Shown here one piece after another: positions 4,988 to 44,857 of a stretch of DNA of 64,000 nucleotides. The notes below the pieces were generated by a model that did not search any database, was not told the DNA's origin, and worked only from the letters and a program-made list of their open reading frames with translations. Position 1 is the stretch's first letter. The number at the start of each line of letters is the position of its first letter. This stretch comes from Oscillospiraceae bacterium (GTDB lineage Bacteria; Bacillota; Clostridia; Oscillospirales; CAG-272). The position numbers and the translations under genes were made by a program. The stretch is taken from the NCBI GenBank assembly GCA_015063625.1, contig SVTT01000001.1:62001-126000 (forward strand), in the 5' to 3' direction.

Positions 4988-5118
4988 ATGGATAATATCT
5001 ACCAACATAACCCAGGGCGGTTCGAAGCCGATCTTTGATCCTTCGTGCTCGGCTGCAATAAGATCCCTTGTGTGTCGGTTGAATGTTTGGTCCAGAATCT
5101 TTAAAAAGGAGAAAACAG

Positions 5119-8100
5119 ATGAAAAAACACGTTCGCTTGCTTTTGCTTGTAGCAACCGTTGTGGCACTGCTGGTGCTCACCGCAGTGATGGCGTCTGCCG
5201 CGACCCCTTATCAGGTCGAGGGTGGCAGCAGCTATGCCACGCTTGCCGAGGCGGTCAGTGCGGTTCCGGCTGGCGGCACCATCACGCTGACGGCTGACGT
5301 GACCGAGAATTCGATGGTCACGCTGAATCGGGCAATAACGTATACCATTGACTTTTCCACCCACACCGTGACCTTTAGCGCGAAGCAGGGTCTTCTGGTT
5401 AGTGAGGGAACGGTCACCGTCAGGGGCGGTGTTCTGACGCAGAGCTCGTCGCTTTATACGGGCACTACGGATGCGATCATTTGTGTCGCCGCAGCGAATG
5501 ACATGACGCTGACCATTGACGGCACCACCTTCAGGGGCGGCTGCTCGCAGCTCAATCTTACCAATACGGGCAAGGCGACCGTCAATATTTATAACGCCGT
5601 CTTCGGTGACGGCACCGATCCGATCAGGCGTGCGCTGATCAACTGCAATAACGGTTCTGTCCCGAATGCCGACACGCTGAACATTCACAGCGGCACCTTC
5701 ACCAACAACGTGAATCTGGATATGGGTATGATCAACGCGGCAGGCATGAATGTCAATATCTACGGCGGTACCTTCACCTCGGTTTACGGCAAGAATATCA
5801 TCCGTCTGGCTGATGCTGACCGCGTCTCCGTGGTGAGCATCGAGGGCGGCAGCTTCACGATGCAGCAGGGGGGCATTATCATTGATTTGACCTCACCAGC
5901 ATCTAATCACGGCGAGGTGACCATCACGGGCGGAACCTTCACGGGCGGAAGCCGTCAGATCGACGTCGGCGGGCAGAACGAGCTGACGATCTCCGCAAGC
6001 ACCAAGGTGGCAGGTGAGCCCCGCTTCGGTCTTGGCACGGTTACCGATGCAGTGATCGGCACGCGCAATGCTGGAGATCAGTCCATAAACGGCGTGAGGG
6101 ATGCACTTGTTACCGTCAACGGCGGTACCTTCATTCTCAACGGCATCAGAACGACAGAGGAAACAACCGATTCCGATGGCAAAAGCGAGGATATCTTTGG
6201 CAACCAGCTCTATAAGGTCACGCTTGCAAACTATCGCATCTTCCACCTTGCGGGTGGTGATTGTGTCATCAATGGCGGCACCTTCACGCTGACCGATGAG
6301 GGCGTGGACGATACGGGTGTCAACTTCCCGGGAACCGGGAAGCCTCTGGAGCAGAGGATCTTCAACATGGATGATAACGACGTCATCTCGGATCTGACCA
6401 TCAAGGGCGGTACCTTTACCACCTCGGCACATACGGTTGCCATTGTGTATTACGCAGCCCGCCACGTCGATCGGGCGGATATCGGAAAGCTGCCCTCAAT
6501 CAGCATTTCGGGCGGCGAGTTCCACGCGCTGCTGGGCGGCAGGATCCTTGATCTCAGTGCGGGTAAATCGGGCAAGGTAACCGTTGAGGTCAGCGACGGT
6601 GTCTTTGAAGGAAAGGGCGATTGCCTGATCTGGGTGTCCTTGCCCTCTGCCACCTCCACGCTTTCGATCACGGGCGGCACCTTCACGCTGCTTGAAAACG
6701 AAAGCCTGAACGGCGGTGCCATTCTTCGTACAGGCTCCAATACCTATGTTGATTCCACCACTCCGCTGACCGATCCTACCAAGGTGCACTTTGCGTCTGC
6801 CGTCAGCATCTCGATCACGGGCGGTCTGTTTATCGACGACCGTTCCTCCAACGACCAGATCGTGGATGCCTCGGTCGGAACCTCAAACATCACGGTGGGT
6901 GCGGCAACCCTGCTTTCCCGTTATGCACAGCCTTATTTCGTCAAGGCGGCATCCGATGCACAAACCATTTCCATGACGCGTAATACCCTCAAATACTTCT
7001 ACCTTACCGAGGAGTATTACGCCTACACGGCAAGCACCGCAACCGATCCCTCCAAGGCGCCCACCATGCGCGAGGGTGCGACCATCCGCGTCGTCACCGA
7101 TGAGGAGGGCATCCGCTTTACCTCAAGTGTGCCGAATTCCTTCCTTGCCACGCTTTCGAGCTATGAGCTCCATACCATCATTGCTCCCGTCGATTTCGTC
7201 AATGCGGCAGGCGCCTTTACCAAGGCGGCACTGGAGGCATATGCACAGCGGAATTATGCCGGCGACACCTCCAGGGTCTTTGTCGATATCAAGGCAGAAA
7301 ACAGTATCGCGGTCAGCGGTGACGTCACCACCTTCAACGGCTGTATCATCAAGCTTCGCACCGTCAACTACGACCGTGATTTCGCGGCGATCTCCTACGT
7401 GCTCGATAAGGGTACGGGCAAGATCTATTACGGTGCATACGATCCCTCCCGTCAGGTTCGCTCCTTTGCCAACGTTGCTGCCGAGGCGCTTTCGGATACC
7501 AAAACGAGCGTGGAAGGGAATTATACCGTTCGCTCGGTTCTTAAGACCTCCGAATACAGCCCCTACACCTCCGCGGCACAGAATAAGATGATGACCGTTG
7601 CAGGTCTTGGCGAGGGTGATGTGATCGCTGAGAAAGCAGTCACTGTCGGCAGCTCCTGGGGCGTGGTGTATGCAAGCGGCGCTTCTGCCAACCTTGTTTC
7701 CAAGATCAATGCCATGGCAAGCAGCTACGGCATTACGACGATCAACGGCAGCACCATGACCAATGAGATCCTGATCGGCAAGACGGGCAGGACCGAAACC
7801 AATACGGCGCTTGCAAGGATCAGCGGCAACGGCTACTTTGTCGGTATCATCGGCAACAAGATCGTTGCGGTCGGCACCACCAATCTGCTGACCATGACGG
7901 CAGTCGACGTTCTGATGCGGAATTACAGTGCGGGCTCCCTGCAGGAGGCGCTTGTCTGTGATCTTCCTCTTCTTACACTGAATGCCGATACCTCCTTCAT
8001 GTTCTCCCGTTACCGCGACGGTAATCTCGAGCTCGGCTATGAGTGGGGCTACAATCATGATCACTACTTCTCAACCAGCAACATCAATACCGAGTATGCC

Positions 8101-9978
8101 GCAGAGCGCAACGAGGAGGCGGTGGATTATCCCGTTTATGCCGCCGCACGCCTTGCCGAAAAACTGCTTGGCGCCTCCGAGCAGAGTGGCGTTACCGCGC
8201 TCTTCAATATCGTGCCCGATGCACTGAATGCAAACGGTCTGACCATCCATGTGGGCCTGACCTCCGATGCGGCAACGGCTGCATTGCTGAAGGATTTCGG
8301 CACCGATATCAACGGCTACGGCTATACCATCCGTGACAATAAGATCGTCATTGCTTCCTATAACGATCAGTCGCTTCGCAAGGCGATCGCTCTCTTTACC
8401 GCCGACCTTGCCGACTTCAAGGAGGGGGATATTTACTGCATCCCCGAGGGCTATGAGGTCACCAAGACCGACACCTATACCTCGGATTGGGCATCCGGCT
8501 TCCCGTTGCCCTCCCTTCAGCTCTCGGGTGCGCTTGACGTGCACGCCGATACCTATCAGTATTACTATACGGGTGAGCAGGCAACGCTTTCTGCCTTCGA
8601 GGCCTATTGCAGCACGCTTGTCGGTCAGGGCTACACGGCACAGCTTGTCAACGATAACGTTGAGGGCAGCTATTTCCGCACCTACATGAGCAGCGACGGC
8701 AAGCTGTCGCTTCACGTGATGTACACGGCGTATCGCCACGCATCCACCCAGTACTTCAGCGTGACGGGCAGCACCTCCAACGTGGCACTGGACACCATGT
8801 TCTCACCCGCCATCCGTGTCATTGTGACCAAGGTCGGTGAAAACTCGATTCTCACAACGCCTCCTGCCAAGCTGCAGAGCCTGCAGACCTTTACTCCCAA
8901 TTCCAAGGTGGCAACGGCGCGCCTGACCTCGGTGCAGCTGAAGCCCGAATGCTGCGGCAACTGCTATATCTACGCGCTGGAGGACGGCTCCTTTATCGTG
9001 CTGGACGGCGGCGGAAGCAGTAGCACCTCCTCCACGAACAGCGACGCGGAGCATCTGTATAAAGTGCTTGAAAAGATGCACACGGAGATCTCAGGCTCGT
9101 CGGTTTCGAAAAGCAATCCCATCAGGATCGCGGCATGGTATATCTCGCACTCGCATAACGACCATCATGACGTGTTCTACAAGTTCTGTCAGAGCTATAC
9201 CAATAGCGCAGGGATCTTTGGCTTTGGCGCAAAGTATGCCACGATCGACTATCTGATCGCAAACTTTGCCTCGGACGATGAGGTCTATAACGTATACGAC
9301 CCCAACATTGCAAAGCTCCGCATTCCCTTTGATCTTGAAAACTCGAGCTGGCCCACGGATATGAACGGTAAGATCAAGTATCTGAAGGTTCATACGGGGC
9401 AGAAGCTCTGGTTTGCCAATGCCGAGCTTGAGGTGCTTTACACGCACGAGGACGTTTATCCCTGGAGTCTTGAGTATTACAACAATACCTCTACCGTCAT
9501 TCGCTTCAATATCTACGATACCAACGGTACGGGCACGAAGGGCGAATGCATCAACTCGGGACTGTGGCTGGGTGACCTGCAATACCGCGGAAGCCAGACC
9601 ATGCGCGCCATGTACGGTGACTACTTGAAGTCCGATATGGTTCAGATCGCTCACCACGGCGGCAACGGCAGCGAGCTTGAGCTTTATAAGCTTGTCAACG
9701 CCGAGGTGATCTGGTGGCCGCATTCCTCTGCTACCGTGAAGGCTTATGCCAAGTATCGCGATTCCTATAGCGAAAACCAAAAGGTTTCGACGGGGACCAT
9801 CGAACAGACTGATTGGAAATATCTGGTCGTGCTTGAGGGCTATGATTTCCAGATCAATCTGAGTGGAGCTCTTGATACCGACTTTGCGGGTGCCACGGAC
9901 TACTACAACGGCGAGACCATCACAGAGGGAACCTATTACTTCACGCCTTCCAGCATGGAAACCTTCAGAAGATCTTAA
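5119..9978 (+). CDS. Large exported protein: beta-helix region, two EIxIG modules and C-terminal MBL-fold hydrolase domain
   Basis: This 1619-residue secreted protein starts with a signal peptide (residues 1-26, ending ASA) and a Lys-rich n-region. Residues about 40-600 hold some 12 copies of a (V/I)xGG(T/S/E)F motif, typical of a right-handed beta-helix. About 640-800 is a domain beginning MREGATIRVV and DEEGIRFTSSV, a style seen on surface proteins of uncultured Clostridia. Two EILIG/IHVG modules (about 865-935 and 1040-1110) and a linker domain (about 1130-1230) follow. The last 350 residues are an MBL-fold domain with H1344-x-H1346-x-D1348-H1349, D1486 in LGD, and H1512-H1513-G, the ComEC-type metal-site pattern. 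The parts from about 860 onward are shared with the four lipoproteins at 35-45 kb. The ATG at 5119 follows AAAAAGGAG. No wall-anchor motif is visible, and the substrate is unknown. Confidence 0.85.
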   Translation: MKKHVRLLLLVATVVALLVLTAVMASAATPYQVEGGSSYATLAEAVSAVPAGGTITLTADVTENSMVTLNRAITYTIDFSTHTVTFSAKQGLLVSEGTVTVRGGVLTQSSSLYTGTTDAIICVAAANDMTLTIDGTTFRGGCSQLNLTNTGKATVNIYNAVFGDGTDPIRRALINCNNGSVPNADTLNIHSGTFTNNVNLDMGMINAAGMNVNIYGGTFTSVYGKNIIRLADADRVSVVSIEGGSFTMQQGGIIIDLTSPASNHGEVTITGGTFTGGSRQIDVGGQNELTISASTKVAGEPRFGLGTVTDAVIGTRNAGDQSINGVRDALVTVNGGTFILNGIRTTEETTDSDGKSEDIFGNQLYKVTLANYRIFHLAGGDCVINGGTFTLTDEGVDDTGVNFPGTGKPLEQRIFNMDDNDVISDLTIKGGTFTTSAHTVAIVYYAARHVDRADIGKLPSISISGGEFHALLGGRILDLSAGKSGKVTVEVSDGVFEGKGDCLIWVSLPSATSTLSITGGTFTLLENESLNGGAILRTGSNTYVDSTTPLTDPTKVHFASAVSISITGGLFIDDRSSNDQIVDASVGTSNITVGAATLLSRYAQPYFVKAASDAQTISMTRNTLKYFYLTEEYYAYTASTATDPSKAPTMREGATIRVVTDEEGIRFTSSVPNSFLATLSSYELHTIIAPVDFVNAAGAFTKAALEAYAQRNYAGDTSRVFVDIKAENSIAVSGDVTTFNGCIIKLRTVNYDRDFAAISYVLDKGTGKIYYGAYDPSRQVRSFANVAAEALSDTKTSVEGNYTVRSVLKTSEYSPYTSAAQNKMMTVAGLGEGDVIAEKAVTVGSSWGVVYASGASANLVSKINAMASSYGITTINGSTMTNEILIGKTGRTETNTALARISGNGYFVGIIGNKIVAVGTTNLLTMTAVDVLMRNYSAGSLQEALVCDLPLLTLNADTSFMFSRYRDGNLELGYEWGYNHDHYFSTSNINTEYAAERNEEAVDYPVYAAARLAEKLLGASEQSGVTALFNIVPDALNANGLTIHVGLTSDAATAALLKDFGTDINGYGYTIRDNKIVIASYNDQSLRKAIALFTADLADFKEGDIYCIPEGYEVTKTDTYTSDWASGFPLPSLQLSGALDVHADTYQYYYTGEQATLSAFEAYCSTLVGQGYTAQLVNDNVEGSYFRTYMSSDGKLSLHVMYTAYRHASTQYFSVTGSTSNVALDTMFSPAIRVIVTKVGENSILTTPPAKLQSLQTFTPNSKVATARLTSVQLKPECCGNCYIYALEDGSFIVLDGGGSSSTSSTNSDAEHLYKVLEKMHTEISGSSVSKSNPIRIAAWYISHSHNDHHDVFYKFCQSYTNSAGIFGFGAKYATIDYLIANFASDDEVYNVYDPNIAKLRIPFDLENSSWPTDMNGKIKYLKVHTGQKLWFANAELEVLYTHEDVYPWSLEYYNNTSTVIRFNIYDTNGTGTKGECINSGLWLGDLQYRGSQTMRAMYGDYLKSDMVQIAHHGGNGSELELYKLVNAEVIWWPHSSATVKAYAKYRDSYSENQKVSTGTIEQTDWKYLVVLEGYDFQINLSGALDTDFAGATDYYNGETITEGTYYFTPSSMETFRRS
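5500..6845 (+). repeat. Degenerate coding repeat of a beta-helix (GG-T-F motif)
   Basis: Within the large exported protein the peptide pattern (I/V)-x-GG-(T/S/E/L)-F recurs about 12 times at irregular spacing, for example IYGGTFTS, IEGGSFTM, ITGGTFTG, VNGGTFIL, INGGTFTL, IKGGTFTT, ISGGEFHA, ITGGTFTL and ITGGLFID. The matching DNA GGCGG(C/T)ACCTTCA is partly conserved, which suggests growth by internal duplication. Confidence 0.75.
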
Positions 9979-19912: not shown

Positions 19913-20359
19913 ATGCTGTTTGGTGAATATCGTCATTCGCTTGATGCAAAAAATCGTGTTTCCATTCCCGCAAAGCTGCGCGAGGAGCTGGGCGAAAATT
20001 TCTTTATCGTTCGCAGCATCCGCGGCACGTGTCTTCGTTTTTATTCCGCACGCGCGTGGGATGAATATATCGCACCGCTGAAAAGTCTGCCCCGTAAGGT
20101 TGCCGAGGATGCGTATTTCACGCTTTACCGTGATGCCATCCAGGTCACGCCCGATTCTCTCGGAAGGGTTCTGCTGACGCCCGCCCTGCTCGGATTTGCC
20201 GAGGTGGCGGATAAAGCGGAGGAGGGCAGCACACGCAATCTCGTGATCGTCGGGTGCGGTGATTACGGAGAGATCTGGTCGGATAAGCTCTATGCCGAGC
20301 GTGTCGGCACCATGGATATGGAAGCGGTTCGCCAGGCTCTTGAAGAGTGTGGGCTTTGA
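19913..20359 (+). CDS. mraZ: Transcriptional regulator MraZ
   Basis: This 148-residue protein has two SpoVT/AbrB-like MraZ domains. The first holds [25 protein letters not shown], and the second [23 protein letters not shown]. It is a DNA-binding ring protein that controls the division and cell-wall cluster it heads. AAAGGAGG lies 7 bases before the ATG. The stop TGA is two bases before rsmH. Confidence 0.95.
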
Positions 20360-20360
20360 T

Positions 20361-21299: not shown

Positions 21300-21327
21300 A
21301 CGATAAAAGAAGGAGGCTGCCAATTCG

Positions 21328-22011: not shown

Positions 22012-22069
22012 CCAGGTATAAACCCTCCTTTTTGTGAATAGAATGGGATGAACGGTTATACTGTTCTCC

Positions 22070-22111
22070 GGCGGCAAATTCCGTATGCACGACGGGTTCG
22101 CCGCCTTTTTT
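22070..22111 (+). terminator. Terminator-like hairpin inside the dcw operon
   Basis: GGCGG pairs with CCGCC and is extended by an imperfect inner stem, then followed by six Ts. It lies in the 123-base gap between the ftsL-like gene and ftsI, immediately upstream of the ftsI ribosome binding site. It may attenuate expression of the downstream half of the cluster. Confidence 0.55.
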
Positions 22112-22134
22112 GTTCTCAAAAAGGAGGGATTTCC

Positions 22135-24378: not shown

Positions 24379-24395
24379 AGGAGCAGAGGAAGGAT

Positions 24396-28247: not shown

Positions 28248-28250
28248 GCC

Positions 28251-29450: not shown

Positions 29451-30556
29451 GGATCATCATGACCTGTGGGGGTACGGGGGGGCATATCACCCCCGCCCTT
29501 GCCATTGCGGATACGATCAGGGAGAATATTGCGGGGGCTGAGCTCCTGTTTGTGGGTGCTGCCGGAGGCATGGAGAATGAGCTGGTAACAGGTGCAGGCT
29601 ATGCGATCAGAAGCCTGCACGTCAAGGGGCTTTCGAGGAAGCTCGGGATCTCCCTTCTTCGTGAGGGTGCACTTGCGGTAAAGGCGATCGGAGATGCAAG
29701 GGCGCTTTTGCGTGAATTTGCTCCGGATATCGTGATCGGTACGGGCGGATACGCCTGTTACCCCACGCTTTTTGCTGCGACACGGATGGGTATCCCGACG
29801 GCAGTGCATGAGTCGAATGCCGTTCCGGGGCTTGCCGTGCGAATGCTGGCAGGCTCTGTGGATCGCGTATGGGTCAATTTCCCCTCGGCGGGCAAGCGGT
29901 TGAGTAGCCGTGCAAGGGTGCTGACGGTGGGAAATCCCTTGCCGCGCGGCTTTGTCGGCACGGGAATTGCGTATTCCTTGCCTGCGGGCTGCCGCCGTAT
30001 GATCCTTTCCTTTGGAGGAAGCCTCGGTGCTGCGGCGCTCAACCGCGCCGTGATCGATCTGATGCGGGCGGAACGCGAGGACGTCTACCATTTGCACGCA
30101 ACGGGGAAGGGGGGATATGAGGAGTTCATGCGCGCGTTCTCCGAGGCAGGGCTTGTCGCGTCAGGGCGACTTGATATCCGTCCCTTCATCTTTGACATGC
30201 CGCGGCACATGGCAAGTGCGACACTGGTCATCTGCCGTGCGGGTGCCATGAGCATCAGCGAGCTTGCGGCGGCAGGACGCGCCGCTGTGCTGGTGCCCTC
30301 TCCCAATGTGACGGGTAACCATCAATATGAGAATGCCAAGGCGCTTTACGAGAACGGAGCAGGAGTCCTGCTTGAAGAGCGCGAACTCGTGGAGGGAGGG
30401 CTTGCCGCCGCCGTGCTTCCGCTTCTTGACGACTCCGCACGCATCCGTGCTTATGAGCGAGGTATTTCCGCGTTTTCCCGTCCCGATGCCAACAGAAGGA
30501 TTCTTGAGGATATGTTAGGACTTTGCCAAAAGGCAAAAAAACATCAAAAAAGGTAG
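29447..30556 (+). CDS. murG: UDP-N-acetylglucosamine--lipid I transferase MurG
   Basis: This 369-residue peripheral membrane glycosyltransferase (GT28) makes lipid II. It shows the glycine-rich N-terminal loop CGGTGGHITPALAIA, GTGGYACYP, HESNAVPGLAVR, LSFGGSLGAAALN, and the UDP-GlcNAc region CRAGAMSISELAAAGRAAVLVPSP followed by NHQYENA. Its ATG overlaps the ftsW stop (ATGA). It is the last gene before the ftsZ promoter. Confidence 0.96.
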   Translation: MRIIMTCGGTGGHITPALAIADTIRENIAGAELLFVGAAGGMENELVTGAGYAIRSLHVKGLSRKLGISLLREGALAVKAIGDARALLREFAPDIVIGTGGYACYPTLFAATRMGIPTAVHESNAVPGLAVRMLAGSVDRVWVNFPSAGKRLSSRARVLTVGNPLPRGFVGTGIAYSLPAGCRRMILSFGGSLGAAALNRAVIDLMRAEREDVYHLHATGKGGYEEFMRAFSEAGLVASGRLDIRPFIFDMPRHMASATLVICRAGAMSISELAAAGRAAVLVPSPNVTGNHQYENAKALYENGAGVLLEERELVEGGLAAAVLPLLDDSARIRAYERGISAFSRPDANRRILEDMLGLCQKAKKHQKR

Positions 30557-30617
30557 CATAGCAGAGTGTTAGGGCGAGGCTTGTCGCTTCTTTTTTAAAA
30601 ATATTTCGTGAAACATC

Positions 30618-30646
30618 TTGCAAATTGGCTTGGAATATATTAAAAT
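30618..30646 (+). promoter_or_regulatory. Sigma-A promoter of ftsZ
   Basis: TTGCAA at 30618-30623 and TAAAAT at 30641-30646 are 17 bases apart in the 157-base gap after murG. A weak GCGA/TCGC stem with T-rich tail at 30574-30596 precedes it. Confidence 0.65.
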
Positions 30647-30713
30647 ATAACTTGAATTGTTGTAATGTTTGCGGCAAGGTGCCGTAAAGACCTGAAAAAC
30701 GGAGGATGTACAT

Positions 30714-32030
30714 ATGACCTTTGAACACGATAATGCCTGTGAAAGCGGCGTAGTGATTCGAGTGATCGGCGTGGGCGGCGGCGGCAATAATGCCGTGAAC
30801 CGCATGATCGCCGCCAATATTCGCGGCGTGGAGTTTGTTTCTGTCAACACTGACCGTCAGGCGCTTCGCAAATCCGAGGCACCCGTGCAGATGGTGATCG
30901 GCGAAAAGATCACCAAGGGCTTCGGTGCGGGCGCAAATCCCGATGTGGGCGCACGTGCCGCAGAGGAGTCGATCGATGAGATCAAGCAGATGCTGGCAGG
31001 TGCCGATATGGTCTTTGTCACCGCCGGTATGGGAGGCGGAACCGGAACAGGTGCCGCACCCATTGTGGCTCGCCTTGCACATGAAATGAATATTCTGACC
31101 ATCGGTATTGTGACCAAGCCCTTCAGCTTTGAGGGCAAGCGCCGCCAGGAGCAGGCGGAGCGAGGCATCAAGGAGCTGCGTCAGTATGTGGATTCGCTGG
31201 TGGTCATCCCCAATGAAAAGCTGAAGCAGGTGTCGGATACGCGCATTACGCTCGGCAACGCCTTTGAGATCGCCGATGATGTGCTTCGTCGCGGCGTGCA
31301 GAGCATTTCCGAGCTGATCAACGTTCCCGGCTTTATCAACCTCGATTTTGCCGACGTCACCTCGGTGATGAAGAACGCAGGCTACGCACATATGGGCGTA
31401 GGCGGCGCAACCGGTGCAGACAAGGCAGAGCTTGCGGCAAGAGCCGCGATTTCCAGTCCCTTGCTTGAAACCTCCATCCACGGTGCACGCGGCATTCTGA
31501 TCAGCATTACCGCCTCGCACGATGTGGGACTTGAGGAGGTGGATCTTGCATCCTCCATGGTTTCCCGTGAGGCACACCCCGATGCCAATGTCATCTGGGG
31601 TCTTGCATTTGATGATTCTCTTGACGACGAAATGCGTATTACCATCATCGCGACCGGCTTTGAGCAGGGAGAGGAGGCAGAGGCTCCCTCGGTTGAGGCA
31701 GTGTCCGCACCTGCACCCAGACCCGAGCCCCCTGTCTTTACCGCACCCGTGACCCCCGCAGGGCAGACTCCCTCGTATGCAAGCCCCGTGGCTGGTTCCG
31801 TGCAGGCACCCTACGTAGCACCCGCCGTCCCTGCGCAGCAGACTCCCGTCGTACAGCCCCAGGCACCCGCAGCGGCGGAGATCCCCGTGGCTCAGCCCGT
31901 TGCTCCTGCCGTCGGTCATCCCCCCAAGTATGATTCCGAGGGAGAGGATTCCTCGATCTCCGAGGATGACTTTGATGCTATCATGAGCATTTTCAAATCT
32001 CGCGGTCGCCGTGACAGAAGCGGCAGATAA
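30714..32030 (+). CDS. ftsZ: Cell division protein FtsZ
   Basis: This 438-residue tubulin-like GTPase forms the Z ring. The N-terminal domain has GVGGGGNNAVNRM and the tubulin signature GGGTGTGAAPIVA, then TKPFSFEGKRR and the T7-loop segment NVPGFINLDFADV. After about residue 320 comes a linker rich in Pro, Ala, Val and Gln. The tail ends EDDFDAIMSIFKSRGRRDRSGR, so the usual DIPxF(I/L) tip is replaced by a DDFDAIMSIF version. GGAGG precedes the ATG. ftsA is not adjacent. Confidence 0.97.
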   Translation: MTFEHDNACESGVVIRVIGVGGGGNNAVNRMIAANIRGVEFVSVNTDRQALRKSEAPVQMVIGEKITKGFGAGANPDVGARAAEESIDEIKQMLAGADMVFVTAGMGGGTGTGAAPIVARLAHEMNILTIGIVTKPFSFEGKRRQEQAERGIKELRQYVDSLVVIPNEKLKQVSDTRITLGNAFEIADDVLRRGVQSISELINVPGFINLDFADVTSVMKNAGYAHMGVGGATGADKAELAARAAISSPLLETSIHGARGILISITASHDVGLEEVDLASSMVSREAHPDANVIWGLAFDDSLDDEMRITIIATGFEQGEEAEAPSVEAVSAPAPRPEPPVFTAPVTPAGQTPSYASPVAGSVQAPYVAPAVPAQQTPVVQPQAPAAAEIPVAQPVAPAVGHPPKYDSEGEDSSISEDDFDAIMSIFKSRGRRDRSGR

Positions 32031-35085: not shown

Positions 35086-35114
35086 TTGAAAACGAGTCTG
35101 AGAAGTGGTATAAT
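35086..35114 (+). promoter_or_regulatory. Sigma-A promoter of the MBL-lipoprotein array
   Basis: TTGAAA at 35086-35091 and a perfect TATAAT at 35109-35114 are 17 bases apart, 64 bases before the first lipoprotein gene. It is the only strong promoter I find for the four-gene array. Confidence 0.8.
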
Positions 35115-35178: not shown

Positions 35179-37560
35179 ATGAAAAGAGTTATCAATCTCT
35201 TGCTTTGCGTGGTGATTTCGGCATCCATGTTGCTGATCTTCTCCTCGTGCAAGAAGGGTGAAACCAAGGTTGATCTGAAGGATTACGATATCGTTTACAG
35301 CAGCGATTTTTCCGCAGGACTTGTGACCGAGGTCAATCAGTTTGCAAAGGATCTCGGCAACTTGATCGGATATGATTTTAACCGCGTCCGCGATAAATCG
35401 AAGGAAGAGATCGTGAGTGACGATTTTGAGATCCTGATCGGTCTGACCAAGCGCGCTGAGTCAAGACAGGCGCTTGAGGAGATCGAGGGGGACGGCTATT
35501 GCATCCGTGTCCTCAACAACAAGATCGTGATCATCGGTACGACCAATCTTCTGACCAGGCAGGCGATCGATCTTTTCGTTTCCACTTACTGTGCCGAGGG
35601 GGAGGGAATGTCCTCCGAGATCCTGTTGAAGGACGATCTGCACTACAATATTGAAATGGTAGAGGTGACCAAGAGCTATAACGTGGTTTATTCCTATCGT
35701 CTGGACGATACGCCCAGCACGGCAGAGCGCTACGAGCCTGGCAACCCCAATGCTTTTGATTATCCCGTTGTTGCGGCAGAGCAGATCCGTTCGAAGCTTA
35801 CCCAAACGCTCGGGCTGACCGCGTCTACAACGGTGTTCCCGATCGGCAAGGATAAGACCTCCTTCGCAATGGCAAAGGAGATCCTTGTCGGAGAGACCAC
35901 TCGTGAGGAAAGCAAGGGCTTCCGCGCAACGCTGGAGGCAAATGAGTATGGCTTTACCATTACCTCTGAAGGCGATATTGTGATCACGGGCACGAACGAC
36001 ATGGGACTCCGTGAGGCTGTCAGTAAGTTTTCTGATGCCATTTTGGATTCCACTGCATTAACCGGTGACAAAAAGAGCGTTCGCTTCCCACTTAATTATA
36101 CTTACAAAGCCGCCTTTAACCAGAGCTGGTTTTTGGATTTTCCGAGACCGGAGGGAGAGGGCATTGAATTTGTCGGCTCGGTCGACGTTTACGATAATTC
36201 GATCGAGCTTTGCTATGACGGCAGTGGCGTCAACGAGGCGTCCTTTGCCGACTATTGCAGAGTGCTTGAAAATGCGGGCTACCGTGTGCATATGTCAAAT
36301 CGGATCGAGGACAGCATCTTCAAGACCTACATCAACGAAGCGGTGGGTGCCACGCTTCATGTTTCCTATGCTGCCTTCAAGCATGCCAATGCGCAGGGCG
36401 TCACACTCTTTTCTCCCTGCATCCGCATCGTTTCCTCCACTCTTGATTCTGTAAATGTCATTGAGGAAGAGCTGCTTAACGAGAGGCAGACCTTTGAAAA
36501 GGTGACCCAGACGCGTATCACCACCATGCAGCTGAACCGCGCCGAGGGCAACTGGGGAAACTGCTATATCATGACCCTTGAGGATGGCTCCTTCGTGATC
36601 TTTGACGGCGCCGGCTCGTATGGCAACTCGGATCACAACCGCCTTTGGAACGTGCTTTCCACGCTCTATGAGCAGGTTCACGGGTATTTGCCCTCCGCAG
36701 AGAACCCCATTGTGATCGCGGCATGGTATCTCTCACACGGACATTTCGATCATTTTTCGAATTTCTGGAAGTTCTGTGAGGTATACGGCTCTCGCATTTC
36801 GGTGGAGCGTATGCTTGCAAACTTTTCCTCGGATGAGGAAAACTATAACACTCATGATCCCAATCCTCAGATTCGTGATTCGCTCAACCGACTGAATCTC
36901 ATCGTGTCGGGCGGTGTCAAATACTATAAAGTCCATTCCGGACAGAAGTTCTATATCCGTAACGTTGAGCTGGAGGTCCTTTATACGCATGAGGATCTGT
37001 ATCCTCAGAAGCTGGAGATCTTCAACGACAGCTCTACCGTCATTCGCTTTACAGTGCATAACACCGACGGAAACGGAAACCGATCGGGTGAGTCCTGCAG
37101 CTCACTCTGGCTGGGAGACCTGCATTATCGAGGCAGCAAATGCTTGCGTGCGATGTACGGCGCTTATCTTGATTCGGATATGGTTCAGTTGGCGCACCAC
37201 GGATATAACGGCTGTGAATATGAGCTTTATCAGCTCGTTTCGCCCGAGCTTGTCTGGTGGCCCTGCGGCAGAGGCGAGTACCACAATACCCAGACGGTGG
37301 ATCCCAACTCCAGTGTCACTCAGTATGTGATCGATTATCGTGTTGCCCACGAACTTGAATCCGTGAGATACATCATTCTCGGTGATGATTACAACACGAC
37401 GCTGACCATCACACCAAACGGTCCCGATTACACGATCGATAACAGCAATGACGGATCTGGCACGGGCATCTACAACGTTGCCGAATACGATCCGACCAAC
37501 CAGAAGACATGGATCAAGCCGAGCACATTAAGTAGCAAGACCTCGTTTATCCGAAAATGA
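35179..37560 (+). CDS. Exported MBL-fold lipoprotein, paralogue 1 of 4
   Basis: This 793-residue protein begins with a lipoprotein signal ending FSSC, followed by KKGETKVDLKDYDIVYSSDF. Module A has EILIGLTKRAESRQALEEIEG and VIIGTTNLLTRQAI. Module B repeats it as EILVGETTREESKGF. A linker domain with DFPRPEGEGIEFVGSVDVYDNS and KHANAQ follows. The MBL-fold domain has NCYIMTLEDGSFVIFDG, H520-x-H522-x-D524-H525, YTHEDLYP, D647 in LGD and H673-H674-G. These are the ComEC-type ligands for two metals, so hydrolase activity outside the membrane is likely, with unknown substrate. The ATG at 35179 gives a clean signal peptide and follows AAGGGAG. Longer readings are rejected because they start upstream of the -10 box. 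Confidence 0.85.
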   Translation: MKRVINLLLCVVISASMLLIFSSCKKGETKVDLKDYDIVYSSDFSAGLVTEVNQFAKDLGNLIGYDFNRVRDKSKEEIVSDDFEILIGLTKRAESRQALEEIEGDGYCIRVLNNKIVIIGTTNLLTRQAIDLFVSTYCAEGEGMSSEILLKDDLHYNIEMVEVTKSYNVVYSYRLDDTPSTAERYEPGNPNAFDYPVVAAEQIRSKLTQTLGLTASTTVFPIGKDKTSFAMAKEILVGETTREESKGFRATLEANEYGFTITSEGDIVITGTNDMGLREAVSKFSDAILDSTALTGDKKSVRFPLNYTYKAAFNQSWFLDFPRPEGEGIEFVGSVDVYDNSIELCYDGSGVNEASFADYCRVLENAGYRVHMSNRIEDSIFKTYINEAVGATLHVSYAAFKHANAQGVTLFSPCIRIVSSTLDSVNVIEEELLNERQTFEKVTQTRITTMQLNRAEGNWGNCYIMTLEDGSFVIFDGAGSYGNSDHNRLWNVLSTLYEQVHGYLPSAENPIVIAAWYLSHGHFDHFSNFWKFCEVYGSRISVERMLANFSSDEENYNTHDPNPQIRDSLNRLNLIVSGGVKYYKVHSGQKFYIRNVELEVLYTHEDLYPQKLEIFNDSSTVIRFTVHNTDGNGNRSGESCSSLWLGDLHYRGSKCLRAMYGAYLDSDMVQLAHHGYNGCEYELYQLVSPELVWWPCGRGEYHNTQTVDPNSSVTQYVIDYRVAHELESVRYIILGDDYNTTLTITPNGPDYTIDNSNDGSGTGIYNVAEYDPTNQKTWIKPSTLSSKTSFIRK

Positions 37561-37652
37561 GCTGATCGTCGCTTCGACCGCAGGGAAGGGAGCCCTCCCG
37601 TCAGCGAGTGCATCAATGAGTTTAGGTGTAACATTCATAGAGGAGTATTTTT

Positions 37653-40013
37653 ATGAAGAAAAGGATTTTTATTCTGTTCCTTTCGGTCTGTCTTCTCGCT
37701 TCTGCTACGCTTCTTTTTGCCTCCTGCTCCAAGGCTGAGGTCGATCTGACCAATTACAGCATCGTTTACGGTGATGACGTTTCAAACACCTTCCTTGGAA
37801 GGATCAACGATTTTGTAAAGACCTTCGGGAAGGCTGTCGGAGGTTCTCCCGAAGCGGTCTTGGATAAAGAAACTCAAACCGTTAAAAACAGCAATTTTGA
37901 AATTCTGATCGGCAATACATCTCGAGAGGAAACGGCAAAGGCACTGGAGCTGATCGAGGGCGACGGCTATTGTATTGCGGTCATCGACGATAAGATCGTC
38001 ATTGTAGGTACGACCAACCTTCTGACCGGCAAGGCGCTTGATCTATTCGTTGAAACCTATCTGAACGATACCGAGGCGGATCTCAGCGTTCTTAAGATGG
38101 AGAAGGAAACGGTTGTCAGCAATATCCCCCTGTTGCAGGTCAACGCCGATTGGAGTATGATCTATTCCATCCGTCTTGACGACAGCTCCACCGATGCCAA
38201 GGGCGACCGTTTGAATCCCGAGAACCCCAACGGCTATGATTATCCTGTGCTCGTCTGCCATCAGCTCTGCGAGTATTTTTCGGATCTGACCGTTCTGAAG
38301 AAGAAGGATATCTATATGGCACCCGATTCTAAATCCTATACCAACGAGATCATTGTGGGCACTACCACGCATCGGGAGGGCATTGACTTTATGGCAACCA
38401 TGAATGTTGATGAATACGGTGTTGGGATCAAGGATGGCAAGGTGGTCGTGGCGGCGCTGAATGACAACATGCTTCGCAAAGCCGCAGCGCTTTTCAAGGA
38501 TGTGATCTACGACAGCAAGAAGGTGGATCCCGATAACGAGAACGAGTATATCATCTGCTTCCCCGATGAGTACAGCATCGTTTTGAGCGAAAAAACCGGC
38601 TGGAGAGTGGATTTCCCCAAGCCCGAGGGAGATCAGATCATCCTGACAGGCTCGGTCAACGTTCATGACGATTCTGTGGAGTATTATTATACCGGATCGG
38701 GTATTTCGAGCAGCGCTTTCGCAGCCTACTGCCAAAAGCTAGAGAGCGGAAATTACAAGCTCCACATGAGCAATACCATTGAAGAGAATGTCTTCAAGAC
38801 CTATTACAATACGTCGAAGGGCGTGATGCTTCACGTGATCTATGCGCCCTATATCCATGCCGCGGAGCAGAAGGTGGAGATGTTTGTTCCCAGCTTCCGC
38901 ATCATTTCCTCCAAGCTGAGCTCGGTCAATATGGTTCCTCAGGAGCTGCTGAACAGCAAGCAGACCTACACCAAGCGCTCCGATACGCGCATCACTGCCG
39001 TGAGATTGGATTACAATGGTGGTGAGAACTACGGAAACAGCTACGTGATGACGCTGGAGGACGGCACCTTCATCGTTTTTGACGGCGGCGGATTTGTCAG
39101 TTCGGACGCAGACAGACTCTACGCTGTTTTGTCAGATCTTTACCGTTCTATTTATGGCAGATTGCCGACCGCCTCCAATCGTATCAAGATCACTGCTTGG
39201 TATATGACGCACGGGCATGCGGATCATTACTATGCATTTTCTACCTTCTGTAATAAGTACGGAGGACTGACCGATCTTGATTACGTGATCGCCAATTTCC
39301 CCTCGGAGCAGGAGACCTACAACTCCTTTGACCCCAATAATACCGTTCGCGACGGCCTGAAGAGCATGCTTTCCAAGCTCGGTGGGCAGAAGATGTACAT
39401 TAAGGTGCATGCGGGTCAGAAATTCTTTATCCGTAATGTCGAGATGGAGGTCCTTTATACGCACGAGGAGATGTATCCTTGGAATATCGAGATCTTCAAC
39501 GATACCTCCACGGTCATCCGTATGAGCATTCGCAACACCGATGGGCAGGGAAATCTGAATTCGGATCGGGAATACAGCTTCCTTTGGCTGGGTGACCTGC
39601 AAACGCGCGGCAGTCGTACGCTCCGTGCCATGTACGGAGATTATCTGCAATCCGATATGGTGCAGGTCTCGCATCACGGCGGTAACGGCTGTGAATGGGC
39701 TCTGTATCAGCTGGTAGCCCCCGAGTACGTCTGGTGGCCTCACAGATTGTCTTACTTTAGCGAGATGGATTCGGGCAGAGAGTCCAACGTGACGTATATC
39801 AAGACCTCCTACAAGGTCATCAACGAGCTTCCTTCCGTGAAATATTTCATTCTGTCGGATAACTATAACGTCACCATGACCATCACTGCGGACGGACCCG
39901 ATATGAGGTTCGTCGGTGAAAGCTCCACGGGACTTTACAATGCCGCAGAGCAGATCGGCACGCCGTTGCTCGCTTACGGAGATGCCGTGATCGCAAAAAA
40001 CCGTTCTTACTAA
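37653..40013 (+). CDS. Exported MBL-fold lipoprotein, paralogue 2 of 4
   Basis: This 786-residue paralogue has the same order of parts: lipoprotein signal with FASC (C25), module A EILIGNTSREETAKALELIEG with IVIVGTTNLLTGKA, module B NEIIVGTTTHREG, linker domain DFPKPEGDQIILTGSVNV, then the MBL-fold domain. Metal-site residues are H520-x-H522-x-D524-H525, D648 and H674-H675-G, at almost the same positions as in paralogue 1. The His-rich motif reads THGHADH. AGAGGAG precedes the ATG. The 92-base gap to paralogue 1 has no clear terminator, so co-transcription is likely. Confidence 0.86.
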   Translation: MKKRIFILFLSVCLLASATLLFASCSKAEVDLTNYSIVYGDDVSNTFLGRINDFVKTFGKAVGGSPEAVLDKETQTVKNSNFEILIGNTSREETAKALELIEGDGYCIAVIDDKIVIVGTTNLLTGKALDLFVETYLNDTEADLSVLKMEKETVVSNIPLLQVNADWSMIYSIRLDDSSTDAKGDRLNPENPNGYDYPVLVCHQLCEYFSDLTVLKKKDIYMAPDSKSYTNEIIVGTTTHREGIDFMATMNVDEYGVGIKDGKVVVAALNDNMLRKAAALFKDVIYDSKKVDPDNENEYIICFPDEYSIVLSEKTGWRVDFPKPEGDQIILTGSVNVHDDSVEYYYTGSGISSSAFAAYCQKLESGNYKLHMSNTIEENVFKTYYNTSKGVMLHVIYAPYIHAAEQKVEMFVPSFRIISSKLSSVNMVPQELLNSKQTYTKRSDTRITAVRLDYNGGENYGNSYVMTLEDGTFIVFDGGGFVSSDADRLYAVLSDLYRSIYGRLPTASNRIKITAWYMTHGHADHYYAFSTFCNKYGGLTDLDYVIANFPSEQETYNSFDPNNTVRDGLKSMLSKLGGQKMYIKVHAGQKFFIRNVEMEVLYTHEEMYPWNIEIFNDTSTVIRMSIRNTDGQGNLNSDREYSFLWLGDLQTRGSRTLRAMYGDYLQSDMVQVSHHGGNGCEWALYQLVAPEYVWWPHRLSYFSEMDSGRESNVTYIKTSYKVINELPSVKYFILSDNYNVTMTITADGPDMRFVGESSTGLYNAAEQIGTPLLAYGDAVIAKNRSY

Positions 40014-40043
40014 ACAGTCCGGAATAAAAAGGAGGATTTTTCT

Positions 40044-42401
40044 GTGAAAAAAACAATCAGTCTGTTGCTGATTCTTTGTCTTCTGGGAGCATCAATGCTG
40101 ATGTTCTCCTCTTGCGGAAAGACAAAGGTCGATCTTGAGCAGTACAGCGTGATCTATGATTCCGATATTTCCGACACGATGGAGGCAAGCATCAAAAGCT
40201 TTGGTCGGAATTTCGGAGATTGGCTCGGCAACTCGGTAAGTGCCAAAAAGGATGACAAAAAGGACGGTGTGGATACCGCCGACTATGAGATCCTGATCGG
40301 TAACACCTCGCGCGTCGAAAGCGCAGAGGCGCTTTCCATGATCGAGGGTCATGGATATGCCATCGTGGTCAGCGACTATAAGATCGCGATCGTCGGTACG
40401 ACCAATCTGTTCACCAAGATGGCATTGGATGAGTTTGCCAAGCTGTGCTTCGAGGGTGGCATCGAAAACGTCAACGAGTTCCAGATGCAAAAGGAAACCG
40501 TTGTCAGCAACGCGGAAGTTACCAAGCTTGACGCTGATTTTAACATGATCTTCTCTGTGCGTATGGATTATGATAATACCGATAACACCCGTGTAGAGAA
40601 TGAGTCCGATAACCCCGAGGGATATGACTATCCCGTCAATGCTGCCGAGCAGATCCGTGAGTACATTGCAGCGAATTCCGTGCTGAAGAAGAATGATCTT
40701 CGCATGTCGGCAGACAGCAAGTCCTATGAGAAGGAGATCATCGTCGGTGTCACTGACCGCACAGAGGGAAAGAGCTTCCTTTCTACGTTGGATTCGACGG
40801 GCTACGGTATCTCGGTCAACGGAAACAAGATCGTTGTGGGCGCTTTGAACGTGACCACCCTGAAAAAGGCAGTCGCGATCTTCTTTGACGCAATTTTGGA
40901 TTCCAAGACCGCTTCCGGAGAGGAAGGGAAGTACGATATCGTTTTCCCTGCGCAGTATTCCTTCGTCGAGAAGGATACAAAGTCTTCTTGGGTTGCGGAT
41001 TTCCCGAGACCCACCGGCGACGGACTGGCGCTGACCGGTACTACGGACGTGGGCGAGGGCTCCTATTCCTACTCCTATACGGGCGAAGGCGCAACTGCCA
41101 ACGCATGTCTCGCCTATTTCACGGCGCTGGAGAATGCAGGCTATACACTGTATGACAGCAACACCATCGGTAACAATCTTTTCCGTACCTACAATCATGC
41201 CGCAAACGGGATCTCGCTCTACGTGACCTATGCCGAGTATACCTATGATGAGTCACAGAAGGTCAATATGTATGAGCCCACCATCCGCATCGTAGCGGCG
41301 AAGAAGGAAAATGCTCATCTGATTCCCGAAAAGCTTCTTTCTGCTTCTCAGAGCTACACCAAGGTGACCGATACCCGCATTACGGCAATGCGTCTTGACT
41401 ATAACGGCAACGCCACCTCGGTTTACGGTAACTGCTACATCGTCACGCTCGAGGACGGCTCCTTTATCGTGTATGACGGCGGTATGACCGACGCCGATGA
41501 CGAGGCAAGACTTTATAACGTCCTGGCCGATCTGCACAAGACGGTCAACGGAAAGAACAGCATCAGCAGACAGGATCCCATCCGCATCGCGGCATGGTAT
41601 CTCTCGCACGGCCACGGTGACCACTACGGCAACTTCCTGGCTTTTGCCAAGACCTACGGTCAGTATTGCTCGGTGGAATATCTGCTCGGCAACTTCACCT
41701 CGAATGACGAGACCTATAATACCCATAACCCCAACAACTACGTTCGTGACCGCCTCTCGACCATTGCGGGCTATTTCAATAAGCCCTTCACCTATGTCCG
41801 TATCCATTCGGGTCAGCAGTTCTATCTGCGCAACGTTGGTATCGAGGTGCTTTATACGCATGAGGATCTCGGTCCTTGGCCGCTTGGCGTCTTTAATAAC
41901 TCCTCTACTGTGATCCGTCTTTCGCTCCGCAGCACCGACGGGCAGGGCAATCTCAACAATACCGATCCCACGACCTTTACTTGGCTCGGTGACCTGCAGG
42001 ATCGCGGCAGTAAGACGCTTCGTGCCATGTACGGCAATTATATGCAGTCCGATATGGTACAGGTCGCTCACCACGGTTGGGATGGCTGCGAGTGGGCACT
42101 TTATCAGCTGATCGCACCCGAGTGCGTTTGGTGGCCCACTTCCATGGCAAACTTCAACTCCTTCTCTTATGCTGCCAATTCGAGCAACGCCTATGCGCGC
42201 GTTGACTACAAGGTGATCAACGAGCTTTCGAGCGTGAATTATCATATTATTTCCGACTTTTACAATGTCACGATGACCATTAAACCCGACGGACGCCCCG
42301 ATTATAGTATTGGCGGTACCACCGGCCTTTACAGTGCGGGCGAAACGGTTCAAAACACGTTGGCCGCGTACGGAACAGCTGTTCGCAAGATCATTCGCTG
42401 A
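40044..42401 (+). CDS. Exported MBL-fold lipoprotein, paralogue 3 of 4
   Basis: This 785-residue paralogue starts with GTG at 40044 after AAAGGAGG, 30 bases past paralogue 2. The lipobox is FSSC (C24). Module A has EILIGNTSRVESAEALSMIEG with IAIVGTTNLFTKMA, and module B has KEIIVGVTDRTEG. The linker domain shows DFPRPTGDGLALTGTTDVG with YSYTGEGA. The MBL-fold ligands are H522-x-H524-x-D526-H527, D650 and H676-H677-G. It is the closest in tone to paralogue 2. A hairpin terminator follows at 42428. Confidence 0.86.
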   Translation: MKKTISLLLILCLLGASMLMFSSCGKTKVDLEQYSVIYDSDISDTMEASIKSFGRNFGDWLGNSVSAKKDDKKDGVDTADYEILIGNTSRVESAEALSMIEGHGYAIVVSDYKIAIVGTTNLFTKMALDEFAKLCFEGGIENVNEFQMQKETVVSNAEVTKLDADFNMIFSVRMDYDNTDNTRVENESDNPEGYDYPVNAAEQIREYIAANSVLKKNDLRMSADSKSYEKEIIVGVTDRTEGKSFLSTLDSTGYGISVNGNKIVVGALNVTTLKKAVAIFFDAILDSKTASGEEGKYDIVFPAQYSFVEKDTKSSWVADFPRPTGDGLALTGTTDVGEGSYSYSYTGEGATANACLAYFTALENAGYTLYDSNTIGNNLFRTYNHAANGISLYVTYAEYTYDESQKVNMYEPTIRIVAAKKENAHLIPEKLLSASQSYTKVTDTRITAMRLDYNGNATSVYGNCYIVTLEDGSFIVYDGGMTDADDEARLYNVLADLHKTVNGKNSISRQDPIRIAAWYLSHGHGDHYGNFLAFAKTYGQYCSVEYLLGNFTSNDETYNTHNPNNYVRDRLSTIAGYFNKPFTYVRIHSGQQFYLRNVGIEVLYTHEDLGPWPLGVFNNSSTVIRLSLRSTDGQGNLNNTDPTTFTWLGDLQDRGSKTLRAMYGNYMQSDMVQVAHHGWDGCEWALYQLIAPECVWWPTSMANFNSFSYAANSSNAYARVDYKVINELSSVNYHIISDFYNVTMTIKPDGRPDYSIGGTTGLYSAGETVQNTLAAYGTAVRKIIR

Positions 42402-42427
42402 TCCCAAAAATCTCACATAATTGAAAT

Positions 42428-42454
42428 GCCCAAACACTTGTTTGGGCATTTTTT
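42428..42454 (+). terminator. Terminator between MBL paralogues 3 and 4
   Basis: The perfect 8-bp stem GCCCAAAC/GTTTGGGC with a 4-base loop is followed by A and six Ts. It sits 26 bases after paralogue 3 and just before the start of paralogue 4, so paralogue 4 may be expressed at a lower level or by read-through. Confidence 0.82.
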
Positions 42455-42467
42455 GAAAGGGTTTACT

Positions 42468-44765
42468 TTGAAACGAGTAATCATTTGCTTATCCGCAATT
42501 CTCCTGCTGTGTTCGGCGTGCCTCGGGTTCTCATCCTGCTCCTCCGACAAGGTGGATCTGGCGGATTATAAGATCGTTTATGACAGAAATCTGAAAGGGA
42601 TCTTTCTTGACGAGGTGGAGGAGCTTGCGCTTCTTTTGAATGCGCGTGCCGGTGCCGAGCTCTCTTTTGTTTCTGATAAATCCGATTTTACAAGCCGTGA
42701 GATCCTGATCGGAAACACCGACCGCGAGGAGACCGCCAAGGTGCTTGCGAGCATCGAAGGGGAGGGCTACGCCATCCGGATGGTGGGCAAGCACATTGTG
42801 ATCGTCGGTACCGACCGACTGATGACCCTGAAGGCAATGCAGGTGTTTTCCGAGGCTTATCTGACGGGGGAGGGCAAGCTCGAGATCGGCGAAGGGGTAA
42901 TCTGCTCCAACGCAGAGCAGTTGGTGCTTGATAGCAGCTTTGCCGTTGTTTACGATCACAGGCTGGATGACGAAAAGGGAAGCAGCTTCGGCTCCGATTA
43001 TCGTACCGAAACCGAAAACCCGGATGCGTATGACTATCCCGTTGTTGCCGCCCATCAGATCCTTGATGCCTTAGAGTCAAGGGCGTCGCTGATCTGCACG
43101 CTTGATACCGATCAGTTCGATCTTCGTAACAAGGAGATCCTTGTGGGCATTGTGGACAGATCGCTTTGTCAGAGCACGCTGAGTGGGTTGAACGTCAATG
43201 ATTACGGTGTCGTGGTGTCGGGGAATAAGGTCTTGGTCGCGGCTGCCAACGACCCCGGACTGCGTATGGCGATCACGCTTTTTAAAAATATTCTCACCGA
43301 GGCGATGGACGAGGACGGCGTTTGCCGTTTGCCGCAGGATTTTTCCATCTTCCGTATGAGAGATTCCTCTCTTTTATCGGACTTTCCGAAGCCTACGGGT
43401 GAAAATATTGATTTCTGCGGCTCGGTCAACGTGGCAGACGGCTCGGTAGAATTGGTCTATCGCGGAAATGGTGTCAATGCCGACAGCTTTGAAGCATACT
43501 GCCACGGCCTGCTTGATGCGGGATGTGAGCTTTTGCTTGAAAATTCGATCGAGGGAAGCCGATTCAAAACGCTTGTCAACCGTGAAAAAGGATATTCTTT
43601 GCACGTCATGTATGCGGCGTATAAGCACGCGGCTGCGCAGGCGGTGAGTGGTCTTTCTCCCACGCTGCGCGTCGTTTGCTCCTCCTTAAAGAAGGTCGCG
43701 GTGCCTGATGGGGCATTGCTTGACAGTCGGCAGACCTATGAAAAGGTAACCGATACGATGGTGACGGCTGTGAAGCTGGATTACAACTACGATGGCGGTA
43801 ACTACGGTAACAGCTTTGTGATCACGCTGGAGGACGGCTCCTTCATCGTATGCGACGGCGGAGGCTTCTCTGACAATGACGGCGAGGAGCTTTTTAAGGT
43901 CCTGAAGAATCTGTTCTATCGCATTTACGGCGTCCTTCCTACAGCAAGCAATCCCATTCGCATTGCCGCGTGGTATATGTCGCACGGTCACGCCGATCAT
44001 TTTGATGCATTTTCTTATTTTTGCAGCACCTACGGCTATCTGGTGGAAATGGATTATATTATCGCCAACTTCCCCTCGGATGACGAAACCTACAATTGCT
44101 ATAACCCCAACAACTATGTGCGTGATAATTTTTCGGGAATGACCTCGGGATTCCTGAAGCGCCCCGTGTATATCAAGGTGCATACGGGTCAGCGCCTTTT
44201 TGTGCGAAACGTCGAGCTGGAGGTGCTTTATACACACGAGGATCTTTATCCCAATATTCTTGATTATTTTAACGACACCTCCACGGTGATCCGTATGCAT
44301 ATTCGCAATACGAACGGGCAGGGAGAGCTTCGCGGCGAGGAAACCACCGTGCTCTGGCTCGGTGATCTTTATTTGCAGGGAAGTCGGTATCTGCGCGCGA
44401 TGTACGGCAATGCACTGCAAACGGATATCGTGCAGCTCGCGCACCACGGATCAATGGGCTGTGAGTATGAGATGTATCAGCTGGTGGCACCCGAATGCGT
44501 GCTCTGGACGGCAAGCGCGAGCAACTACTATCGACAAACGCGCTATCAAAATTCCTCCAACTGGGTCACACGCGCCAACTATGGGCTTGCGCATCTTGCT
44601 TCGGTGCGCTTTATCATCGTGTGCGACGTATATGACACCACCTTTACCGTGACCGAGCAGGGACCTGTTTATGAGGTGGACGGCGAGAACTGTATGTTTG
44701 ACGCCTCGTTGGTTTCAACCCCCCGCGTTTACTATGGAGATGCGATCATCAAGAAGAATCAATAG
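42468..44765 (+). CDS. Exported MBL-fold lipoprotein, paralogue 4 of 4
   Basis: This 765-residue protein is read from a TTG at 42468, which gives a normal signal peptide (LKRVIICLSAILLLCSACLG) ending FSSC. An ATG at 42426 is in frame but lies across the terminator and would add a charged stretch. Module A is EILIGNTDREETAKVLASIEG with IVIVGTDRLMTLKA, and module B is KEILVGIVDRSLCQ. The linker domain DFPKPTGENIDFCGSVNVADGS carries an extra Cys. MBL ligands are H506-x-H508-x-D510-H511, D633 and H659-H660-G. It is the most diverged of the four, and no separate promoter is seen. Confidence 0.83.
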   Translation: MKRVIICLSAILLLCSACLGFSSCSSDKVDLADYKIVYDRNLKGIFLDEVEELALLLNARAGAELSFVSDKSDFTSREILIGNTDREETAKVLASIEGEGYAIRMVGKHIVIVGTDRLMTLKAMQVFSEAYLTGEGKLEIGEGVICSNAEQLVLDSSFAVVYDHRLDDEKGSSFGSDYRTETENPDAYDYPVVAAHQILDALESRASLICTLDTDQFDLRNKEILVGIVDRSLCQSTLSGLNVNDYGVVVSGNKVLVAAANDPGLRMAITLFKNILTEAMDEDGVCRLPQDFSIFRMRDSSLLSDFPKPTGENIDFCGSVNVADGSVELVYRGNGVNADSFEAYCHGLLDAGCELLLENSIEGSRFKTLVNREKGYSLHVMYAAYKHAAAQAVSGLSPTLRVVCSSLKKVAVPDGALLDSRQTYEKVTDTMVTAVKLDYNYDGGNYGNSFVITLEDGSFIVCDGGGFSDNDGEELFKVLKNLFYRIYGVLPTASNPIRIAAWYMSHGHADHFDAFSYFCSTYGYLVEMDYIIANFPSDDETYNCYNPNNYVRDNFSGMTSGFLKRPVYIKVHTGQRLFVRNVELEVLYTHEDLYPNILDYFNDTSTVIRMHIRNTNGQGELRGEETTVLWLGDLYLQGSRYLRAMYGNALQTDIVQLAHHGSMGCEYEMYQLVAPECVLWTASASNYYRQTRYQNSSNWVTRANYGLAHLASVRFIIVCDVYDTTFTVTEQGPVYEVDGENCMFDASLVSTPRVYYGDAIIKKNQ

Positions 44766-44820: not shown

Positions 44821-44857
44821 AATACCGGCATGCGAAAGCTTCGCATGCCGGTATTCT
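44821..44857. terminator. Bidirectional terminator after the MBL array
   Basis: A 16-bp perfect stem, AATACCGGCATGCGAA/TTCGCATGCCGGTATT, closed by a tiny loop lies between paralogue 4 (+) and the pantothenate kinase gene (-). The U tract is short on both sides. Confidence 0.75.

Follow-up and report, generated by a model that had tools for sequence, protein, structure and literature searches.

Four tandem genes at 35179-44765 of the window (the whole 64,000-nucleotide stretch of DNA analyzed here) would, as one unit, supply secreted, lipid-anchored hydrolases with a binuclear metal site. We attach an even probability to the reading that these are surface phosphodiesterases of phosphate-bearing glycopolymers outside the cell, with copies that vary mainly in their targeting domains. 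This reading is preferred because the MBL domain is close to those of Pce and ComEC, the metal ligands are kept, dN/dS is low, and the N-terminal modules are of a glycoside hydrolase (GH) type, and also because the fusions of such modules in the same genome all involve phosphoester enzymes, one relative has dockerin and CBM_4_9 domains, and two homologues are fused to beta-helix-like repeats. However, MBL folds also hydrolyze lactones, thioesters, and sulfates, which counts against it. The folds themselves are known, and what appears to be new is their combination and genomic arrangement, of which we found no earlier description in the literature. An earlier note had left open that the architecture might belong to a family of known function, and none that covers all of it emerged from the profile, structure, and literature searches.

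The genes and their putative expression signals are arranged in the window as follows.
35086..35114, + strand: promoter-like site TTGAAA-17-TATAAT with TG before the -10 element (extended -10); consensus match only
35179..37560, + strand: copy 1, lipoprotein of 793 aa with signal, two GH-N-type modules, DUF6591-like linker, and MBL domain
37653..40013, + strand: copy 2, lipoprotein of 786 aa; structure predicted
40044..42401, + strand: copy 3, lipoprotein of 785 aa, GTG start, with AAAAGGAGG upstream
42423..42452, + strand: terminator- or attenuator-like 13-pair hairpin with T-rich 3' end in the gap between copies 3 and 4; z -4.9
42468..44765, + strand: copy 4, lipoprotein of 765 aa, TTG start
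44821..44855, no strand assigned: two-way terminator-like 16-pair hairpin 3' of copy 4, at the end of the array; consensus match only

The open reading frames of the four paralogues were found in tandem, with the positions and lengths that the earlier note had given. The promoter-like site is 64 bases ahead of copy 1 and adjoins a divergent alaS promoter-like site that agrees at 12/12 bases (consensus match only). The four copies are probably one transcription unit, and since a strong hairpin separates copies 3 and 4, copy 4 may be expressed at a lower level. An alternative ATG start of copy 4 at 42426 would enclose this hairpin in the gene. Identity among the copies is about 43-48% (43-47% against copy 1). 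A signal peptide and a lipobox, with its cysteine at residue 24 or 25, are present in all four, which, judging from these two features only, are probably secreted and lipid-anchored at the surface; the possible envelope system of the earlier note has these same two features as its evidence of location.

Copy 2 was used for structure prediction (AlphaFold2; pLDDT 93.5, pTM 0.90), and its parts are listed below.
37731..38102, + strand: first GH20b/GH67N/GH115N-like alpha/beta module (residues 27-150)
38103..38582, + strand: second such module (residues 151-310)
38583..38972, + strand: DFP(R/K)PxG segment and DUF6591-like alpha+beta domain (residues 311-440)
38973..39962, + strand: MBL domain of the ComEC/Pce group (residues 441-770), from predicted structure and structural and profile matches
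39210..39227, + strand: motif II, HGHADH (residues 520-525)
39594-39596, + strand: ligand D648
39672-39680, + strand: HHG motif

The MBL domain of the model (440-770) matches Pce (2bib; Z 24.8, 271 residues, 3.3 A) and the ComEC MBL domain (9ic4; Z 24.4, 257 residues, 2.9 A), which are tied. The next structural group is RNase J, aligned through the MBL core (Z 17.6), but the beta-CASP domain of nucleases of that type has no Pfam match in the four proteins; an MBL arylsulfatase is also among the matches (Z 16.1). The top Foldseek match is the ComEC MBL domain (E 6e-12). The PDB profile search likewise placed ComEC MBL domains closest (E 1.4e-8), followed by Pce (E 0.0015), and a single-sequence search of the PDB with copy 2 gave no match. 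For Lactamase_B (PF00753), copies 2 and 3 reach the Pfam gathering score and copies 1 and 4 fall below it, while 51/63 relatives match at E 0.01. Based on the confident model, the catalytic domain is predicted to be a binuclear-metal hydrolase of the ComEC/Pce group.

The metal motifs are intact in all four copies, as the earlier note reported: HxHxDH starts at residues 520/520/522/506, the Asp of LGD follows 127/128/128/127 residues later, and HHG is 26 residues further. None of 200,000 shuffles of one protein had all three motifs in this order with about these spacings. All seven ligand positions are kept in 40/41 lipoproteins of the genus, with one G017 protein as the exception. In the 63-sequence family alignment, both His and the Asp of HxHxD are present in every sequence, and the final His in 62/63. 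NG86 dN/dS between near orthologues is 0.11-0.19 (dS saturated in 2/4 pairs), and the lipoproteins are under purifying selection. The ligands, kept in 40/41 lipoproteins and 62/63 aligned relatives, together with these ratios, support the earlier suggestion that these look like active enzymes. W516, just before motif II, is invariant across the alignment, and a conserved N-x-P-S loop comes after the motif; from this conservation, both may shape the substrate pocket.

The earlier note had also assigned the MBL domains to the ComEC type. The predicted fold is indeed ComEC-like, but the metal site is of the Pce kind (HxHxDH) and not of the ComEC kind (HxDxDH). The second position of motif II is His87 in Pce (PMC5031224) and a conserved Asp in ComEC (PMC5031224; PMC8579336), and it is His in 63/63 of our relatives. 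With the ComEC MBL domains (9ic4, 9vc6), the lipoproteins share the fold, an NDxSxV segment, the GD and HHG motifs, and, as predicted, the extracellular side. In contrast to ComEC, the four proteins have no match to the Competence transmembrane domain (PF03772), and a Ser directly after HHG (S728 in ComEC), which binds DNA and supports nuclease activity (PMC12455585), is found in only 4/63 relatives. Membership in ComEC thus fails on three tested features. Pce/CbpE, the teichoic acid phosphorylcholine esterase (2bib, 1wra), shares the MBL fold over ~270 residues, HxHxDH, the bridging Asp, and the organization as a surface protein with an accessory targeting part. Identity to Pce is 16%, however, and the lipoproteins differ from it in having a predicted lipid anchor and N-terminal glycosidase-type modules. 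Membership in Pce fails on the choline-binding repeats, for which no Pfam match was found in the four proteins. Overall, the predicted catalytic site resembles that of Pce most. No LicD match was found in the genome (94% complete), which makes phosphocholine on the producer's own wall polymers unlikely but says nothing of the polymers of other cells.

The ComEC likeness raises another explanation, namely, that the lipoproteins are extracellular nucleases, which would cleave environmental DNA or RNA at the cell surface to scavenge nucleotides and phosphate, or would replace the lost nuclease activity of the cell's own ComEC. The closest profile matches are ComEC MBL domains, relatives of which are proven Mn-dependent nucleases (PMC8579336; PMC12455585), and one protein of this genome joins the N-terminal module type to a DNase I-like domain. 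Moreover, motif II is degenerate (HYHNAH and similar) in the MBL domain of the host's separate ComEC (G000:C10:198621-199436) and in those of all 15 genus-mates read, i.e., 16/16 sequences. However, in other families of the order the state of this motif is mixed. Degenerate ComEC MBL domains were also seen in genera of this family and order for which no such lipoprotein was found, and the two traits are thus not co-distributed. We accordingly rejected an in-trans nuclease for the degenerate ComEC, as the distribution gives no specific link. Given also the His at the Asp position of ComEC and the rarity of the Ser after HHG, we consider the nuclease explanation unlikely. Sugar-enzyme-type modules would also be unusual on a nuclease.

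The N-terminal modules have been recognized previously by an EI(L/I)(I/V)GxTxR pattern said to occur in both. Both modules are present, but the pattern is inexact, as copy 2 has EIIVGTTTH and copy 4 has EILVGIVDR in the second module. In a separate model of the N-terminal 415 residues of copy 2 alone (pLDDT 93.9), both modules match the N-terminal domains of GH115, GH67, GH20, GH84, and GH138 enzymes (Z 9-11.7). Relatives have sequence-profile matches to such domains (PF02838, PF03648, PF12971; Glyco_hydro_20b, Glyco_hydro_67N, NAGLU_N), among which PF02838 is found in 5/63; the window copies by themselves have no match to it. BT_4395 was matched in the PDB profile search, in line with glycosidase-type modules. 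These modules are therefore not new but appear, from model and profiles, to be glycoside-hydrolase N-terminal-type domains. Unlike in those enzymes, no glycosidase domain comes after them, and two stand in tandem before an MBL domain. The linker weakly matches DUF6591 (PF20234) in core relatives (E 2e-4 to 0.02, below the curated cut-off) and has no such match in the window proteins themselves; 6td9 (Z 9.7), among the structural matches of the N-terminal model, overlaps it.

Mean identity between copies is 55% for the MBL domain versus 36% for the second module, which rules out an equal divergence of all domains; the second module and the C-terminal tail are the most divergent parts. Because the modules diverge more than the MBL domain, we propose that the copies share one chemistry and differ mainly in targeting domains, possibly with a division of labor. 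The two GH-N-terminal-type domains and the DUF6591-like domain would place the active site on the polymer, and catalysis would be phosphodiester hydrolysis on extracellular polymers. The most likely substrates would be phosphate-substituted glycopolymers, either chains resembling teichoic acid or the phosphoryl groups of plant or microbial glycans in the hindgut.

The domain company of these proteins bears on this proposal. Modules of this type recur in two other proteins of the genome, one with an alkaline phosphatase domain and one with a DNase I-like, Exo_endo_phos-like domain (E 0.0085, below the curated cut-off). P0006, a linker+MBL core relative in another family, carries type I dockerin and CBM_4_9 domains, and its genome has 12 dockerin and 4 cohesin matches.
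L103:5575-9249 (G055:C14): 1225-aa protein with type I dockerin, DUF6591-like linker, MBL domain, and CBM_4_9
The dockerin/CBM_4_9 protein is apparently an MBL enzyme borne by a cellulosome-like system. Together, the fusions and this relative place the catalytic domain in the company of phosphoesterases on one side and of glycan-degrading systems on the other. The genome of the window itself has three cohesin matches and a weak dockerin match near a 3346-aa open frame (G000:C7:139214-142465), a locus that is possibly scaffoldin-like.

Such company would also fit glycan-directed enzymes that remove an ester, lactone, or sulfate, and not a phosphate, from plant, mucin, or microbial polysaccharides. 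The carbohydrate-enzyme-type modules, the beta-helix fusions, the dockerin/CBM-bearing relative in a cellulosome-like genome, the apparent glycoside hydrolase genes adjoining relatives (by eye), and the MBL arylsulfatase match are all in its favor. However, structure and sequence are much closer to the phosphodiesterases Pce and ComEC (Z 24-25 vs 16), and we regard this explanation as unlikely as well. A broader form of the phosphodiesterase reading is possible though doubtful: the proteins may represent a new carbohydrate-active class of surface- or cellulosome-borne MBL-fold phosphodiesterases that strip phosphoryl groups from glycopolymers of the ruminant hindgut, with paralogues specialized by their modules. 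If the phosphodiesterase reading is right, the ComEC/Pce phosphodiesterase group would be tied to glycan processing, a function class would be suggested for a Clostridia-wide core family matched in Pfam only as MBL hydrolase, and the copies would form a natural paralogue series with one chemistry and variable targeting domains.

The array is not an isolated set of four genes, as it was first taken to be, but part of a family that is found throughout the genus at a fixed locus, in varying copy number, and a fifth homologue in the window had been overlooked.
5083..9978, + strand: fifth homologue, 1631 aa, with beta-helix-like repeats (by eye), modules, linker, and MBL domain; homologous part 7636-9867
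Its metal motifs are HSHNDH, LGD, and HHG. The sixth homologue of the genome, on contig C9, is likewise a long protein and has N-terminal beta-helix-like repeats (by eye) ahead of modules, linker, and MBL domain of the same kinds. Within the genus, 21/21 genomes carry the complete architecture (matches at E <= 1e-60, 1 to 11 per genome), which would be a testable surface trait of this uncultured gut genus, kept by every genome examined. Of 391 genomes sampled across the class, with the best two candidates per genome scored, only that of the window had all of the architecture, while the linker+MBL core or the MBL domain alone was found in 25 others (E <= 1e-40). In G055, from another family of the same order, the partial relative extends over the second module too. 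Metagenome bins are the source of the named relatives, in several cases bins from the caecum or colon of roe deer, sheep, or goat.

In at least 10 other genomes of the genus, the lipoproteins likewise lie between alaS (recognized in G001 and G017 through its antisense frame) and a pantothenate-kinase-like gene. The copy numbers at this locus include one (G011, G017), two (G015, G019, G020), three (G012), four (G005), five (G001, G010), and six (G004). A tree of 41 lipoproteins has 19 genome-label changes versus 32.0 in shuffles. It contains clear pairs of orthologues from near species and, in other species, groups specific to one genome; the window's copies 1-3 cluster (support 93), and copy 4 is a deeper branch. 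This tree suggests that copy number at the locus shifts through tandem duplication, divergence, and loss.

The sole locus lipoprotein of G017 (L079:7681-10116) has the ligands HHDNDNN, i.e., H525N, H674N, and H675N, in a full-length, open frame, and is a candidate natural pseudoenzyme. With three ligands lost in the only copy at the locus, the lipoprotein may have a non-catalytic role in one species at least. This case, and the fastest divergence being in the targeting domains, would agree with lectin-like surface binding proteins or sensors with a structural metal site. As a general account this is highly improbable, because every ligand is kept in 40/41 lipoproteins and in all aligned linker+MBL relatives over deep divergence.

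The signal-less MBL proteins of ~400 aa found in several genomes of the genus, often paired in tandem next to radA and a few kb from comEC, are cousins that are presumably intracellular and leave the array unexplained.
L136 7897-10639; L137 7497-10021; L138 4030-6554; L140 4455-6897: loci of signal-less ~400-aa MBL proteins
A 548-aa MBL relative without an obvious signal peptide (G000:C9:32532-33368) adjoins apparent sugar-metabolism genes, and its C-terminal part weakly matches ASRT (PF07100). A defence or phage role is not supported, with NCBIfam ComEC and 6A-MBL anti-phage matches weak and far under the cut-off and nothing usable from PADLOC and PHROGs. No constant gene partner was found near relatives across the class. 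In line with the earlier remark on the substrate, no neighbor points to a pathway or names a substrate; both flanking genes, alaS and the kinase gene, seem to have housekeeping functions. On the far side of alaS from the array, the window has a cell-wall and division run (19913-32030; mraZ, rsmH, PBP, murE, murF, mraY, ftsW, murG, and ftsZ, by eye), parts of which likewise lie beyond alaS in several genomes of the genus.
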